Shown: piece by piece, positions 11,679-15,798 of the stretch
Layout of the letters: each line of letters opens with the position of its first letter
How positions within the stretch are numbered: position 1 is the stretch's first letter
NCBI GenBank assembly: GCA_903953895.1
Contig: CAJBLH010000022.1
Location: forward strand, 1 to 64,000
Length of the DNA stretch: 64,000 bases
Direction of reading: 5' to 3'
DNA from: an uncultured Desulfobacteraceae bacterium
GTDB taxonomy: Bacteria > Desulfobacterota > Desulfobacteria > Desulfobacterales > Desulfatirhabdiaceae
Translations under genes and position numbers: made by a program
Notes under the pieces: generated by a model
What the model saw: the letters and a program-made list of their open reading frames with translations, nothing else
The model's database searches: none
What the model was told of the DNA's origin: nothing

Positions 11679-12431
11679 TCACGGCTGATCGATCTTCTGT
11701 TTTCGATATTGAATATACCCGTCTTTGAACGACTCGTAGGGAATAATGGCGGCATCCTTCAATTCCTCGTATTGGCCGATTCGAAACGACAGATCGTTGA
11801 TGGATTCACCGATCTTCAGCGACCAGCCAACAACAGCCGGATCGATAAATGCCGTGGGGGTGAAAACAACATCTCCTGCCATGCCCGCAACATCCCGCAG
11901 CGTGGATGGCCCGATGACGGGCAGCACCAGATAGATACCATTACCAATACCGAAGCGGCCCAGCGTCTGCCCGAAATCCTTGTTGGGCGGATTCAGGTGG
12001 GGGTATTCTTTTGCCGGATCCCAGAATCCCAGTACGCCAAAAGTCGTGTTATAAACCAATCGGCACATCTCAGACGCCATATCGTCCATCTTACCCTGTA
12101 ATAAGCTGTTACCTATCCGGATCGGTGACCCAAGATTGTGCAAAAAATTTCTGAAACACTGACGAACCGGTGTTGGAACCACCGCTCTAAATCCCTGAGC
12201 AACAGGTTTCAACACCCAGAAATACAATTTGTCATTGAATTCAAACACGGCCTGGTTCAGTTCGAACAACGGATCGGCAACCGTGATGCGCGGCGCATCC
12301 TCTTCGAGGTATTCTTCATCGTCGGGTGAACGGGTCTGGAGGGTTGGTGAATCGTCGGAATAAACAGCCTGAACACCCGGCAGAAACATGAACATACCGG
12401 ACAGCATCAGGATGACCACAGTCTTTTTCAA
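11679..12431 (-). CDS. mlaA: MlaA/VacJ-family outer-membrane lipid-asymmetry protein (250 aa)
   Basis: MlaA removes misplaced phospholipids from the outer leaflet of the outer membrane and passes them to MlaC. Family signatures are DPLFELNQAVFEFNDKLYFWVLKPVAQGF, RNFLHNLGSPIRIGNSLLQGK and FGQTLGRFGIGNGIYLVLPVIGPS. I prefer a TTG start at 12431 (TGAGG seven bases upstream), which gives the signal peptide MKKTVVILMLSGMFMFLPGVQA. An ATG at 12464 would add 11 residues before it. No lipobox cysteine follows the hydrophobic core, so unlike E. coli MlaA it is probably not a lipoprotein. It follows mlaC by a few bases. Confidence 0.9.
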   Translation of the reverse strand: MKKTVVILMLSGMFMFLPGVQAVYSDDSPTLQTRSPDDEEYLEEDAPRITVADPLFELNQAVFEFNDKLYFWVLKPVAQGFRAVVPTPVRQCFRNFLHNLGSPIRIGNSLLQGKMDDMASEMCRLVYNTTFGVLGFWDPAKEYPHLNPPNKDFGQTLGRFGIGNGIYLVLPVIGPSTLRDVAGMAGDVVFTPTAFIDPAVVGWSLKIGESINDLSFRIGQYEELKDAAIIPYESFKDGYIQYRKQKIDQP

Positions 12432-12469
12432 AGAAACCTCATTTCCGATGGGTCGGTCACACATACGCT

Positions 12470-13096
12470 TTAATTTCCGATTTTAATATCGACTTTCTTC
12501 TTGAGCCGTTCGATCAACTGCACCGGGGTTTCCTTGGTGAGAATCTGATCGAACTGGGTGCGATAATTCTTGATCAGGCTGACGCCTTCGATGTTGACAT
12601 CGTATACCCGCCACTGATTATCGACGGTCAGCATGCTGTAATCCACGGAGATCGGGCTGGGCTCGCGTTCGACTTTGGTTGTCACCATGGCTTTTCCTTC
12701 GGCAATCATCTCCTGATTCAGAAAAACGATCGTTTCCCCCTTGTACTCGCCCTGTACCTTATCCATATAGGTGTTGCTGAGATGGTCAGCAAAAACATCG
12801 ACAAATTGCAGTTGCTCCTGAGGGCTGAAGGATTTCCAGTTACGGGCAAGGGCCCGCTTGGACATTTCGGTAAAATCGAACAGCGTATGGGTAATCTCCA
12901 GAATCTTGTTCCGTTGCTGCTGACGGTGTGCCGGGTCCTTATATTTCGGATCTTTTAATAGACTCAATACGGTTTCGATTGGAATCTTCAGCGCTTCCAT
13001 GGGTGAGGTGACCGCAGACAGGCCCGACTTCCCTGTCAAGAGAAGCACAATCGCCAAAATCAATACAGAAAAACAACGGATTCGTGTTGTAAACAT
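12470..13096 (-). CDS. mlaC: MlaC/Ttg2D periplasmic phospholipid-binding protein (208 aa)
   Basis: A soluble periplasmic carrier that shuttles phospholipid between MlaA and the inner-membrane MlaEFD complex. An N-terminal signal peptide (IRCFSVLILAIVLLLTGKSGLSA) precedes the Tol-tolerance-family domain: EITHTLFDFTEMSKRALARNW, FADHLSNTYMDKVQGEY and WRVYDVNIEGVSLIKNYRTQF. I chose the ATG at 13096 because TAGGAG lies seven bases upstream; an in-frame start at 13138 lacks such a site. It is divergent from mlaE, so the Mla genes form two back-to-back units sharing one control region. Confidence 0.93.
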   Translation of the reverse strand: MFTTRIRCFSVLILAIVLLLTGKSGLSAVTSPMEALKIPIETVLSLLKDPKYKDPAHRQQQRNKILEITHTLFDFTEMSKRALARNWKSFSPQEQLQFVDVFADHLSNTYMDKVQGEYKGETIVFLNQEMIAEGKAMVTTKVEREPSPISVDYSMLTVDNQWRVYDVNIEGVSLIKNYRTQFDQILTKETPVQLIERLKKKVDIKIGN

Positions 13097-13231
13097 GAGT
13101 ACACTCCTACAAGCCGAGAAAAAAGAATAGATTCCCAACTTTAATAAAAATTGTTATTTCAAACCCAGTATTCTTAGTGTCAGCCATTTGAAAAAGCAAG
13201 CGATATTTTGGACAGTTGCAGAAATCCGAAT

Positions 13232-13252
13232 CAAGTCAATGGCATTGGCTTG
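13232..13252. promoter_or_regulatory. Palindromic operator-like site upstream of the mla genes
   Basis: Arms CAAGTCAATG (13232-13241) and CATTGGCTTG (13243-13252) are inverted repeats with 9 of 10 positions matching around one central base. The right arm overlaps the -35 hexamer of the plus-strand promoter, which is the placement expected for a repressor site. The site lies 63 bp before mlaE and 136 bp before mlaC. The regulator is unknown; the length and symmetry suit a TetR- or GntR-type dimer. Confidence 0.6.
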
Positions 13253-13279
13253 ACACATCCGGATCGTTCACTGTAGTAT
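13250..13279 (+). promoter_or_regulatory. Sigma70-like promoter for mlaEFD
   Basis: TTGACA at 13250-13255 matches the -35 consensus perfectly and is followed, after 18 bases, by TAGTAT (13274-13279, four of six). The mlaE ATG is 36 bases further on, preceded by AAAGGGG. It overlaps the palindrome described separately. Confidence 0.55.
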
Positions 13280-13314
13280 GCGCCAAAAAAGCTTGTTGAG
13301 CAAAGGGGTTATCC

Positions 13315-14118
13315 ATGGCAATCCTGTCCACTGTCAAACTGTCGGTTTGCGTTTTGGGCCAAATGACGATGTCGCCTGTCCAGAGATTGGGCAAAATGAC
13401 CGTATTTTTTTTCTGGGGGCTGATTCATATCTTTTCGTTGCCGCTCCAGATATATAAAATCGTGGAACAGATTTTTTTCATCGGCATGAAGTCGGTTTTC
13501 GTCATCTGCCTGACCGCAGCATTTACTGGCATGGTGCTGGGACTTCAGGGGTACTACACCCTGGTGAAATTCGGCTCCGAAGGCATGCTCGGCGCAGCCG
13601 TGGCACTGTCTCTGGTTCGGGAAATGGGGCCGGTTCTGACCGCCATCATGGTTATCGGAAGAGCTGGGTCCGCCATGGCGGCCGAAATCGGCATCATGCG
13701 GATATCCGAGCAGATCGATGCGCTGGAAACCATGGATATCAATCCGGTAAGATATCTGGTCAGTCCCCGCATCGCTGCTGCACTCATCAGCTTTCCGCTG
13801 TTGACGGCCCTGTTCGACGTCATCGGCATTTTCGGAGGATATATAACAGGCTCGCTGCTTTTGGGAATCAATCCTGGTGTTTATTTTGCACGGGTTGAAT
13901 CCAGCGTGGTGATGAAAGACATATCCGGCGGTTTTTCAAAATCCATCGTATTTGCATTGGTGGTGGTGACCGTTTGCTGTTTCAAAGGGTATTTCACCCA
14001 TTTGCAGACCGATGGGTTCGGCTCCAAGGGCGTCAGTCTTTCAACGACCTCCGCAGTAGTCTTGTCGTGCGTTCTGGTACTGATTGCGGACTATGTGCTG
14101 ACTTCAATTCTGCTTTAG
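13315..14118 (+). CDS. mlaE: MlaE-family ABC transporter permease (267 aa)
   Basis: Inner-membrane permease of the MlaFEDB-type phospholipid transporter. Hydrophobic segments include VFFFWGLIHIFSLPLQIYKIV, SVFVICLTAAFTGMVLGLQ, ALISFPLLTALFDVIGIFGGY, SIVFALVVVTVCCFKGYF and AVVLSCVLVLIADYVLTSIL. The conserved motif ALSLVREMGPVLTAIMVIGRAGSAMAAEIG..RISEQIDALETMDI is present. It starts the plus-strand unit mlaE-mlaF-mlaD, nine bp before mlaF. The ribosome binding site AAAGGGG fixes the ATG. Confidence 0.95.
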   Translation: MAILSTVKLSVCVLGQMTMSPVQRLGKMTVFFFWGLIHIFSLPLQIYKIVEQIFFIGMKSVFVICLTAAFTGMVLGLQGYYTLVKFGSEGMLGAAVALSLVREMGPVLTAIMVIGRAGSAMAAEIGIMRISEQIDALETMDINPVRYLVSPRIAAALISFPLLTALFDVIGIFGGYITGSLLLGINPGVYFARVESSVVMKDISGGFSKSIVFALVVVTVCCFKGYFTHLQTDGFGSKGVSLSTTSAVVLSCVLVLIADYVLTSILL

Positions 14119-14127
14119 GGGCCATTC

Positions 14128-15339
14128 ATGAAAACACCGCTGATCCAACTGAACGATATTTATAAAACATTCGGCGCCAACAGAGTTCTGGATGGCATAA
14201 CGCTCAGCATTTATCAGGGGGAGATCACCACCATCATCGGCAAGAGCGGCGGCGGAAAAAGCGTGCTGCTGAAACACATCATCGGCCTGCTGGAGCCGGA
14301 TGCCGGGCATATCCTCTTTAACGGACACCCCCTTTCCGAAATGAAACGCCCTGAACGAAAAATCCTGAAACGAAAATTCAGCTATATGTTTCAGGGAAAC
14401 GCCCTGTTCGATTCACTCACGGTGTATGAAAACGTGGCATTGCCGCTGAAAGAAACAGCCGTTCTGCCGGAAAAGGAAATCCGCCGGCGTGCCGCTGAAA
14501 AAATGGCGCATCTCGATATTCTGGGAAATGAAGACAAATACCCGTCACAACTCTCCGGTGGCATGAGAAAACGGGTTGCACTGGCACGCGCATTGATGAC
14601 CGACCCGGAAATCATCCTTTTTGACGAACCCACGACCGGCCTGGACCCCATTCGGAAAAACGCGGTTCTCAGCATGATATCCGACTATCAGAAGAAGTTC
14701 GGATTTACAGGCGTTGTGGTCAGTCATGAAATCCCGGATATTTTTTATATCTCTCAGCGCATTGCCATGCTGAATGACGGCCGAATTCTGTTCGAGGGCA
14801 GCCCGGAGGAAATTCAACGCAGCCCTGTTACAGAAATCCGAAATTTCATTTATGGGTATGAGGCCCCGCAGGGTGCTTATTCCGGTAGAAACAATCAGCC
14901 TTATGTCGAGCGGCGTTTTCTGCAGGAAATGGCTCGGCTGCAGAATCACGACATTGCATTTTCACTGGTTATTTTTACATTCGACAATATCGATGAGATT
15001 TATGAACACGCAGAACATATCGCCGGCCAGACCGTCATTGAAAACCTGGCTCTTAAAATTCGCCATAAAATTGCGATTACCGATTCCTGTTCTCGGCTTG
15101 GGCTGAACAAAATCGTTCTGCTGATTACAAATGCCGACAGAGTCCAGGCCCGTGCATTCTGTGAAGGGTTGGCCCGTGACATTCAAGCCAATGACTTTAT
15201 CAAACCTAAGCCCAGTCCGGATTTCTGTTTTTCCTTCAGCGTCGGCTTTGCCCAGGCAACCCGGGACAGCAGCCTGGAATCGCTGCTGGAAACCGCAGAG
15301 TCCAGCTCAAACCCGTTTTATCAATTCAAAGTCTGCTGA
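14128..15339 (+). CDS. mlaF: MlaF-family ABC ATPase fused to a degenerate GGDEF domain (403 aa)
   Basis: Residues 1-245 are a complete ABC ATPase: Walker A GKSGGGKS (38-45), signature LSGGM (142-146), Walker B IILFDEP (162-168) and switch histidine 200. This drives the MlaE/MlaD phospholipid transporter. MlaF is normally ~270 residues; here another 150 follow. Residues ~276-402 match the plan of a GGDEF domain: FSLVIFTFDNIDEIYEHAEH, then GQTVIENLALKIRHKI, then SRLGLNKIVLLI where catalytic enzymes have RxGGDEF, then CFSFSVGFAQA (the SxG strand), LESLLETAESS and FYQFKVC. The GG(D/E)EF loop is lost, so cyclic-di-GMP synthesis is not expected; a regulatory nucleotide-binding role is inferred. Confidence 0.93.
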   Translation: MKTPLIQLNDIYKTFGANRVLDGITLSIYQGEITTIIGKSGGGKSVLLKHIIGLLEPDAGHILFNGHPLSEMKRPERKILKRKFSYMFQGNALFDSLTVYENVALPLKETAVLPEKEIRRRAAEKMAHLDILGNEDKYPSQLSGGMRKRVALARALMTDPEIILFDEPTTGLDPIRKNAVLSMISDYQKKFGFTGVVVSHEIPDIFYISQRIAMLNDGRILFEGSPEEIQRSPVTEIRNFIYGYEAPQGAYSGRNNQPYVERRFLQEMARLQNHDIAFSLVIFTFDNIDEIYEHAEHIAGQTVIENLALKIRHKIAITDSCSRLGLNKIVLLITNADRVQARAFCEGLARDIQANDFIKPKPSPDFCFSFSVGFAQATRDSSLESLLETAESSSNPFYQFKVC

Positions 15340-15351
15340 TCCGGAGGAACA

Positions 15352-15798
15352 ATGCAAAAGACATCCATTGAAATGGCCGTTGGGGTATTCATGCTGATCG
15401 GAATTGCCTGCGTGGGATATTTAACCATTCAACTCGGCAAGATGCAGTGGCTCGGCGATGATTTTTATTCGCTGGATGCCAGATTCAAGTCTGCTGCAGG
15501 CCTGAAGTCCGGCTCTCAGGTGGAAATCGCAGGCGTACAGGTGGGGCAGGTCGGCTCCATCCAATTCGATCCGAACCGCCAGATGGCCCTGGTTCGATTG
15601 AAAATACAGAAAGATATCGTTCTGACCGATGATGTCATTGCATCCGTAAAGACGTCTGGTCTGATCGGAGACCGGTACATCAAACTCACCCCGGGCGGAT
15701 CGGATATGGTGCTGAAATCCGGAGATCAGATCATTGAAACCGAGTCAGCCATCGATTTCGAGGAGTTGATCAGCAAATACGTCTTTGGGAAGGTCTAA
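15352..15798 (+). CDS. mlaD: MlaD-family MCE-domain protein (148 aa)
   Basis: An inner-membrane-anchored periplasmic MCE-domain protein that forms the hexameric lipid-binding ring of the Mla transporter. One N-terminal membrane anchor (IEMAVGVFMLIGIACVGYLTIQL) is followed by the MCE core: DARFKSAAGLKSGSQVEIAGVQVGQV, MALVRLKI and VKTSGLIGDRYIKLTPGGSD. The length is near the E. coli protein (183) but with a shorter tail. It lies 12 bp after mlaF with GGAGG before the ATG. MlaB has no gene here, as is common outside gammaproteobacteria. Confidence 0.95.
   Translation: MQKTSIEMAVGVFMLIGIACVGYLTIQLGKMQWLGDDFYSLDARFKSAAGLKSGSQVEIAGVQVGQVGSIQFDPNRQMALVRLKIQKDIVLTDDVIASVKTSGLIGDRYIKLTPGGSDMVLKSGDQIIETESAIDFEELISKYVFGKV

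Follow-up and report, generated by a model that had tools for sequence, protein, structure and literature searches.

The mla locus and its fused ATPase

The window analysed here, a stretch of 64,000 nucleotides from an uncultured Desulfobacteraceae bacterium, carries a cluster of mla genes around a fused ATPase gene. The open reading frame at 14128-15339 on the plus strand encodes a protein of 403 aa. Residues 1-245 (14128-14862, plus strand) form an MlaF ABC ATPase domain matched by Pfam ABC_tran, and residues 246-403 (14863-15336, plus strand) form a C-terminal pseudo-GGDEF domain, hereafter the tail. The gene lies in an operon with the mlaE permease gene (13315-14118, plus strand; Pfam MlaE, 261.9 bits) and with mlaD, which encodes an MCE protein (15352-15798, plus strand; Pfam MlaD, 78.5 bits). 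Close by on the minus strand are mlaC (12470-13138; Pfam MlaC, 154.8 bits), whose start codon is uncertain, and mlaA (11679-12464; Pfam MlaA, 212 bits). The mlaE gene gives the sole MlaE match in the assembly, so the cell probably has no Mla ATPase of the MlaE-partnered kind besides the fused protein. Elsewhere in the genome (C229:1323-2357) three MCE (MlaD) matches fall within a single 560-aa open frame that may represent a second system of lipid transport, of the PqiB type.

The ABC domain is itself nearest to MlaF. In the whole protein the ABC_tran match spans residues 21-170 (126.6 bits), and the translation contains GKSGGGKS, LSGGM and DEP, which we take to be the Walker A, signature and Walker B motifs. 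The top NCBIfam profile is that of MlaF, PRK11831, at 193 bits, under its equivalog cut-off of 441.

The mlaE and mlaD genes adjoin the fused gene in nearly all loci of sufficient length. Neither was present within the fetched flanks of L136, L138 and L150, no mlaD was seen in L055 and L067, mlaE lies 2.3 kb off in L141, and the gene order deviates in L133 and L147. In the window (11679-15798) and in its near relatives (L042-L044), mlaA and mlaC are divergent and stand upstream of mlaE-mlaF-mlaD. Many other Desulfobacterales loci have the one-way order mlaE-F-D-C-A.

The predicted fold of the tail

An earlier note on this DNA had described an MlaF ATPase fused to a degenerate GGDEF domain at 14953-15339. 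That MlaF is joined to a domain of GGDEF fold whose active site is dead is confirmed by Pfam, by the predicted fold and by alignment to cyclases. The note's coordinates begin too late: 14953 corresponds to residue 276, about 25 residues past the true start near residue 250 (about 14875).

Searched with the whole protein, Pfam GGDEF (PF00990) matches residues 255-392 (14890-15303) at 33.9 bits (E 3.2e-8), above the curated cut-off of 23.8. The tail alone scores 37.1 bits, and it also passes TIGR00254, the general GGDEF model of NCBIfam (41.7 bits, cut-off 37.4). A phmmer search against PDB sequences returned mainly cyclases, with a best E of 3.8e-9. All 32 tails scanned gave a GGDEF match and no other Pfam family at E <=0.001, and a relative from outside the order (L160) reached 85.5 bits; chance is therefore not a fair explanation of the score and was ruled out. 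Both domains receive their Pfam labels automatically, so any annotation pipeline would show this architecture.

Structure prediction and a fold search, which had been proposed as a check, found a GGDEF fold in the predicted model. An AlphaFold2 model of the tail alone, built from 32 sequences, has a mean pLDDT of 78.1 and a pTM of 0.75, and is poor in its first 12 residues and in the stretch 153-157. The top Foldseek match is the GGDEF entry 4zve (E 7.5e-8, probability 1.00, TM 0.72), and the best 50 are all cyclase or GGDEF entries by description, a few carrying a protein name only. VIA-align gives a Z of 17.4 to 6hbz (B. bacteriovorus DgcB) over 142 residues with an rmsd of 2.5, and a Z of 17.3 to PleD. 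The full-length model (pLDDT 78.7, pTM 0.59) is nearest to E. coli MlaF 6xgy at 36% identity; its best 50 Foldseek rows are all ABC chains and are uninformative on the tail. On the predicted model, the tail domain has a GGDEF fold.

Loss of the catalytic residues and a rebuilt loop

We sorted 107 distinct fused proteins, which are best matches and not a census, into group A (58 proteins, the window's type), group B (19, from a second operon) and group C (30, from another class). Group A comes mostly from the window's order; L157, L160 and L161 lie outside it. Residues were tabulated for 84 of the 107 together with eight active cyclases of the window's own genome, and in this table group C is represented by seven proteins.

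The hallmarks of a diguanylate cyclase are replaced. No GG(D/E)EF-like string occurs in the tail of any of the 107 proteins. Where the eight active cyclases carry R-(Y/F)-G-G-(E/D)-E-F, the window protein has RLGLNKI (residues 323-329; 15094-15114, plus strand), as the earlier note had read. Position 284, which we take to be the first metal Asp of cyclases, lies in TFD (residues 284-286; 14977-14985, plus strand) and is Thr here; Asp is found in 8/8 of the own-genome cyclases and 0/107 fused proteins, having mostly given way to Thr or Ser across the family. The place of the guanine-contacting Asp, a role known from PleD, is taken by Q301 (15028-15030, plus strand), with Gln in 50/58 of group A, 16/19 of B and 27/30 of C; a single fused protein, L133, has Asp there (1/107). 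The second loop Gly, at position 326, is absent from all 107, the loop 326-329 is replaced, and Lys 289 is mostly replaced. At the entry motif DxLTG(L/M) (14872-14889, plus strand) the window reads GAYSGR; in group A its D, L, T and G are kept in 45, 42, 47 and 52 of 58 proteins respectively.

An active but unusual diguanylate or other nucleotide cyclase would fit the GGDEF fold, and a variant-motif cyclase is on record, with AGDEF in VCA0965, as described in PMC3974145. The loss of Asp 284 and of the second loop Gly throughout the 107 proteins, together with the frequent replacement of Lys 289, makes such activity highly improbable. Judged from the aligned residues, the tail is an old, conserved pseudo-enzyme and no cyclase.

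Other parts of the domain are retained. Kept in group A are a GH pair (46 and 37 of 58), R323 (55), A341 (57), G373 (57) and A390 (54). The loop has a consensus of its own, D-x-C-S-R-x-G-(L/M)-(N/D)-K-I, in which D319 is invariant (58/58) and C321, R323, N/D327 and K/R328 are each found in 55/58; positions 327 and 328 correspond to the pair of acidic residues in the cyclase loop. Hairpin positions 319, 321, 323 and 328 belong to the 20 most conserved positions of the tail. As this consensus is conserved, the group A loop has not simply decayed; it appears to have been rebuilt and then held. The loop is mostly T-I-N-E-F in group B and variable in group C, for example G-P-E-E-I in L164. Proteins L131-L148 mostly have an LTGL(Y/H)S(R/K) entry near the GGDEF start signature, yet carry the T-I-N-E-F loop.

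The rebuilt hairpin and a set of Cys residues raise the question of whether the tail senses something other than c-di-GMP, by binding a metal, a redox signal, another nucleotide or a protein. Besides C321 (15088-15090, plus strand), group A tends to keep C345 (15160-15162), C367 (15226-15228) and C403 (15334-15336), all on the plus strand, in 50/58, 46/58 and 37/58 proteins, and the hairpin conservation given above, including that of N/D327 and K/R328, would suit a binding site. Against this, C321 and C345 occur together in 34/43 proteins where about 33 are expected by chance, none of the 19 group B and seven group C proteins tabulated has Cys at position 321, and the conserved Cys may serve core packing. 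We consider sensing of this kind quite unlikely. A paired metal site formed by the conserved Cys was rejected as something shown, there being no excess co-occurrence among the 43 proteins. A Cys aligned with C403 is also present in 18/19 of group B and in 7/7 tabulated group C proteins.

The c-di-GMP I-site

The primary c-di-GMP site, the I-site, consists of RxxD plus a basic residue 28 positions past the Asp, as in PleD. Its place in the window protein is residues 316-319, AITD (15073-15084, plus strand), so that the Arg is lost in this genome and the three positions read A316, D319 and G347. A degenerate GGDEF receptor of c-di-GMP would be expected to retain RxxD there. The own-genome active cyclases have Arg in 7/8, Asp in 8/8 and Lys or Arg at the third position in 7/8. 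The RxxD motif is present in 39/58 of group A, 0/19 of B and 0/30 of C, and 31/58 of group A combine R316, D319 and K/R347, the D. alkenivorans protein L062 being one example of the full set.

Binding of a nucleotide or second messenger, which the earlier note had suggested, is not supported for this genome, where the metal and guanine positions are replaced and residues 316 and 347 are Ala and Gly. The messenger itself is probably made here, since the genome holds 11 further GGDEF matches and 5 PilZ matches. Elsewhere in the family c-di-GMP control is possible because R316, D319 and K/R347 are all present in those 31 group A proteins.

Degenerate GGDEF domains that act as receptors or pseudo-enzymes are known from PelD, PopA and FimX, and PelD is an established c-di-GMP receptor of this kind. 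Like them, the tail has a GGDEF fold without catalysis, and RxxD is intact in some relatives of the window protein. It differs in being fused to an ABC transporter ATPase, in having lost the I-site Arg and in having its own conserved loop motif.

The tail may be proposed as a c-di-GMP receptor whose I-site binds c-di-GMP dimers, bridges two tails and switches MlaF, this being a job of the family that decayed in the window's genus. The I-site residues of group A sit at the positions used by the own-genome cyclases, the other GGDEF and PilZ proteins would provide the signalling context, and PelD-like receptors are a precedent. The substitutions in the window and the absence of RxxD from groups B and C weigh against it. 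In group A, moreover, D319 is invariant despite the loss of the Arg, and K/R347 does not visibly track R316 on the tree, a comparison of low power with only three supported independent pairs. We regard this reading as unlikely, if worth keeping in view. Judged by residues, c-di-GMP control appears unlikely for the window's copy, yet for some members of the family it stays a serious competitor.

Distribution of the fusion

Among the matches listed, the tail is present in all seven genomes of the genus sampled, the window's included. Named relatives with the tail are the type strain Desulfatibacillum alkenivorans DSM 16219 (L062) and a Desulfatirhabdium MAG. A search of the class covered 389 genomes, of which 297 had a match at E <=1e-60, and the matches listed all come from the window's order. 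By hand count at least 95 rows in at least 91 genomes reach through the tail at >=515 bits; the matches listed also include tail-less orthologues and a lower-scoring tailed paralogue. The order also has a second mla operon, which encodes its own pseudo-GGDEF-tailed MlaF (L131-L148).

A search of 395 genomes of the phylum gave at least 10 strong tail matches in MlaF frames outside the order (L157, L160-L164, L166, L169, L172 and L174, labelled by phylum only). In one other class a tailed MlaF was counted by hand in 31/46 genomes among the rows listed, one of them cut at residue 330. Collapsing identical proteins reduced 75 to 62, of which 43 have the tail and 19 lack it. L085 and L086 represent truncated or broken copies, L087 and L090 fall outside the family, L207 is cut after residue 330, and L055 has masked bases at its end.

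Comparison with related genomes, the other check proposed for the fusion, thus found it in the genus, in the D. alkenivorans type strain and in other classes of the phylum. A local artefact or misassembly was ruled out by its presence in 7/7 genomes of the genus, in the type strain and in the single-contig assemblies G017, G197, G231 and G370. MlaF with a pseudo-GGDEF tail is present in many sulfate-reducing bacteria and their relatives.

Origin, loss and selection

An IQ-TREE phylogeny was built from 139 ABC domains, including 106 of the 107 tailed proteins; L076, cut at its start, was left out, as were the tail-less L221, L224, L225, L229 and L230, and repeats and short matches were dropped. 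All 106 tailed rows fall within one clade of 126 rows (support 100/100); the tree's other 13 rows all lack the tail. The tail label needs 10 changes on this tree, against 29.6 for shuffled labels, and with that rooting the 10 changes can be read as one gain and about nine losses, the Desulfosarcina group among them. The tree is soft, with many group A forks open and the bootstrap unsettled, and its well-supported branches force only 4 of the 10 changes. A tree of the tails separates 50 of the 107 from 24 intact-loop GGDEF domains with an SH-aLRT of 100, and its topology fits a single origin. As the tail was lost several times, it would seem dispensable for Mla in the loss lineages.

For pairs within the genus that had a computable dS, dN/dS ranges over 0.055-0.32 in the tail and over 0.03-0.11 in the ABC part. 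The comparison comprises 28 pairs, three of which lack a tail dS (one also an ABC dS), and values of dS above about 1 are near saturation. The tail reaches 0.17-0.32 among the window and L041-L044, roughly 2 to 6.5 times the ABC part in the same pairs, and 0.055-0.070 among L045-L047. In group A the mean entropy is 1.98 bits in the tail versus 1.04 bits in the ABC domain. None of the 95 class-search rows listed as extending across the tail at >=515 bits contains an internal stop. At the codon level the tail domain shows purifying selection.

A passive relic, that is, a drifting remnant tolerated on MlaF, would account for the higher dN/dS of the tail in the window and L041-L044 and for the repeated losses. 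Values well below 1, as low as those of L045-L047, speak against drift, as do the rebuilt-loop residues kept in 55/58 of group A, the uninterrupted frames and the inheritance of the tail across classes. We judge a relic improbable.

The tail and the MlaF dimer

In the available account of E. coli MlaF, the protein ends in an extension of about 25 residues that wraps the partner subunit; without residues 247-269 the protein no longer functions, and most of its function returns when a GCN4 dimeriser is supplied (PMC7367683). The same source describes C-terminal domains of other ABC transporters that self-associate beneath the ATPases. Residue 244 of the window protein aligns with position 247 of the MlaF profile PRK11831, so the tail begins at the same boundary as the E. 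coli extension.

The window protein resembles the MlaF of the E. coli, P. aeruginosa and Acinetobacter MlaFEDB complexes (6xgy, 7cha and 7d06) in its ABC domain, 36% identical to 6xgy, in its partners MlaE, MlaD and MlaC, and in a domain boundary near residue 245. It differs in that E. coli MlaF, as described, has an extension of about 25 aa and the STAS protein MlaB, whereas here a 158-residue GGDEF-fold domain follows. A search with the STAS_2 model found no match, and hence no candidate MlaB partner, on contig C22. Six more tailed genomes (G017, G055, G218, G197, G231 and G370) have no STAS_2 match near the group A mlaF, in a survey of 14 genomes that comprised seven tailed, six tail-less (G355, G354, G236, G206, G251 and G100) and the unclassed G088. 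The tail-less orthologous mlaF genes have no STAS_2 match nearby either, the closest being 84 kb away, in G100. A one-for-one swap of MlaB for the pseudo-GGDEF domain is therefore an insufficient explanation, since tail-less orthologues of the same order also lack a nearby STAS_2 match. MlaB is described as sparsely distributed in diderms (PMC10665443), so its absence is compatible with the identity of the protein as MlaF.

In G370, two STAS_2 matches that score below the cut-off are located 6-8 kb away from a second, group B mlaF, at a third mla-like locus. Separate mla-like loci (L137:11572-13000 and L145:9180-11180) carry a tail-less MlaF, and the N-terminal part of the L145 MlaE shows a weak resemblance to STAS that stays under the threshold (20.2 bits, cut-off 22.6). 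A single genome may contain both the tailed and the STAS-bearing design.

The C-terminal domains of MetN (C2) and ModC offer another comparison. In the account given in PMC10710835 they bind substrate at the dimer interface and halt the transporter cycle. The tail is like them in standing past the ATPase core and, by analogy, in holding or propping the ATPase dimer; it is unlike them in its fold, and MetN and ModC bind their own substrate whereas no ligand is known here. ABC ATPases that bear an accessory domain at the C-terminus are a known design; here that domain is a dead GGDEF. Judging by titles and abstract openings, we found no description in the open-licence literature of a fusion of MlaF or any other ABC ATPase to a GGDEF domain.

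We favour, at about even odds (roughly 0.5), the reading that the catalytically dead GGDEF-fold tail is a lasting part of the Mla transporter, most likely serving to hold the MlaF dimer or to regulate MlaF, with control by a ligand as a possibility. Two tails would be placed on the MlaF dimer at the site taken by the C-terminal extension in E. coli. There they might clamp the pair of ATPase subunits or fix the distance between them, in the manner of the MetN and ModC C-terminal domains. As the classical c-di-GMP site is absent from this genome, the tail would act here structurally or through a signal not yet known.

Implications

This fusion adds a transporter ATPase to the settings in which a dead GGDEF domain is retained. 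Post-translational tuning of Mla transport is open even in E. coli, where the control of active MlaB levels is called an open question (PMC7367683), and a conserved domain of signalling origin on MlaF provides a direct handle on it. The tail hints at a built-in means to hold together or adjust outer-membrane lipid transport. More speculatively, and with a rather small chance of being right, an ancestral pseudo-GGDEF tail in much of the Desulfobacterota might read c-di-GMP or another nucleotide and open or close the MlaF dimer, gating phospholipid traffic between the membranes, with the switch repeatedly dropped or rewired. If so, biofilm signalling would be tied to outer-membrane lipid balance without a transcriptional step.
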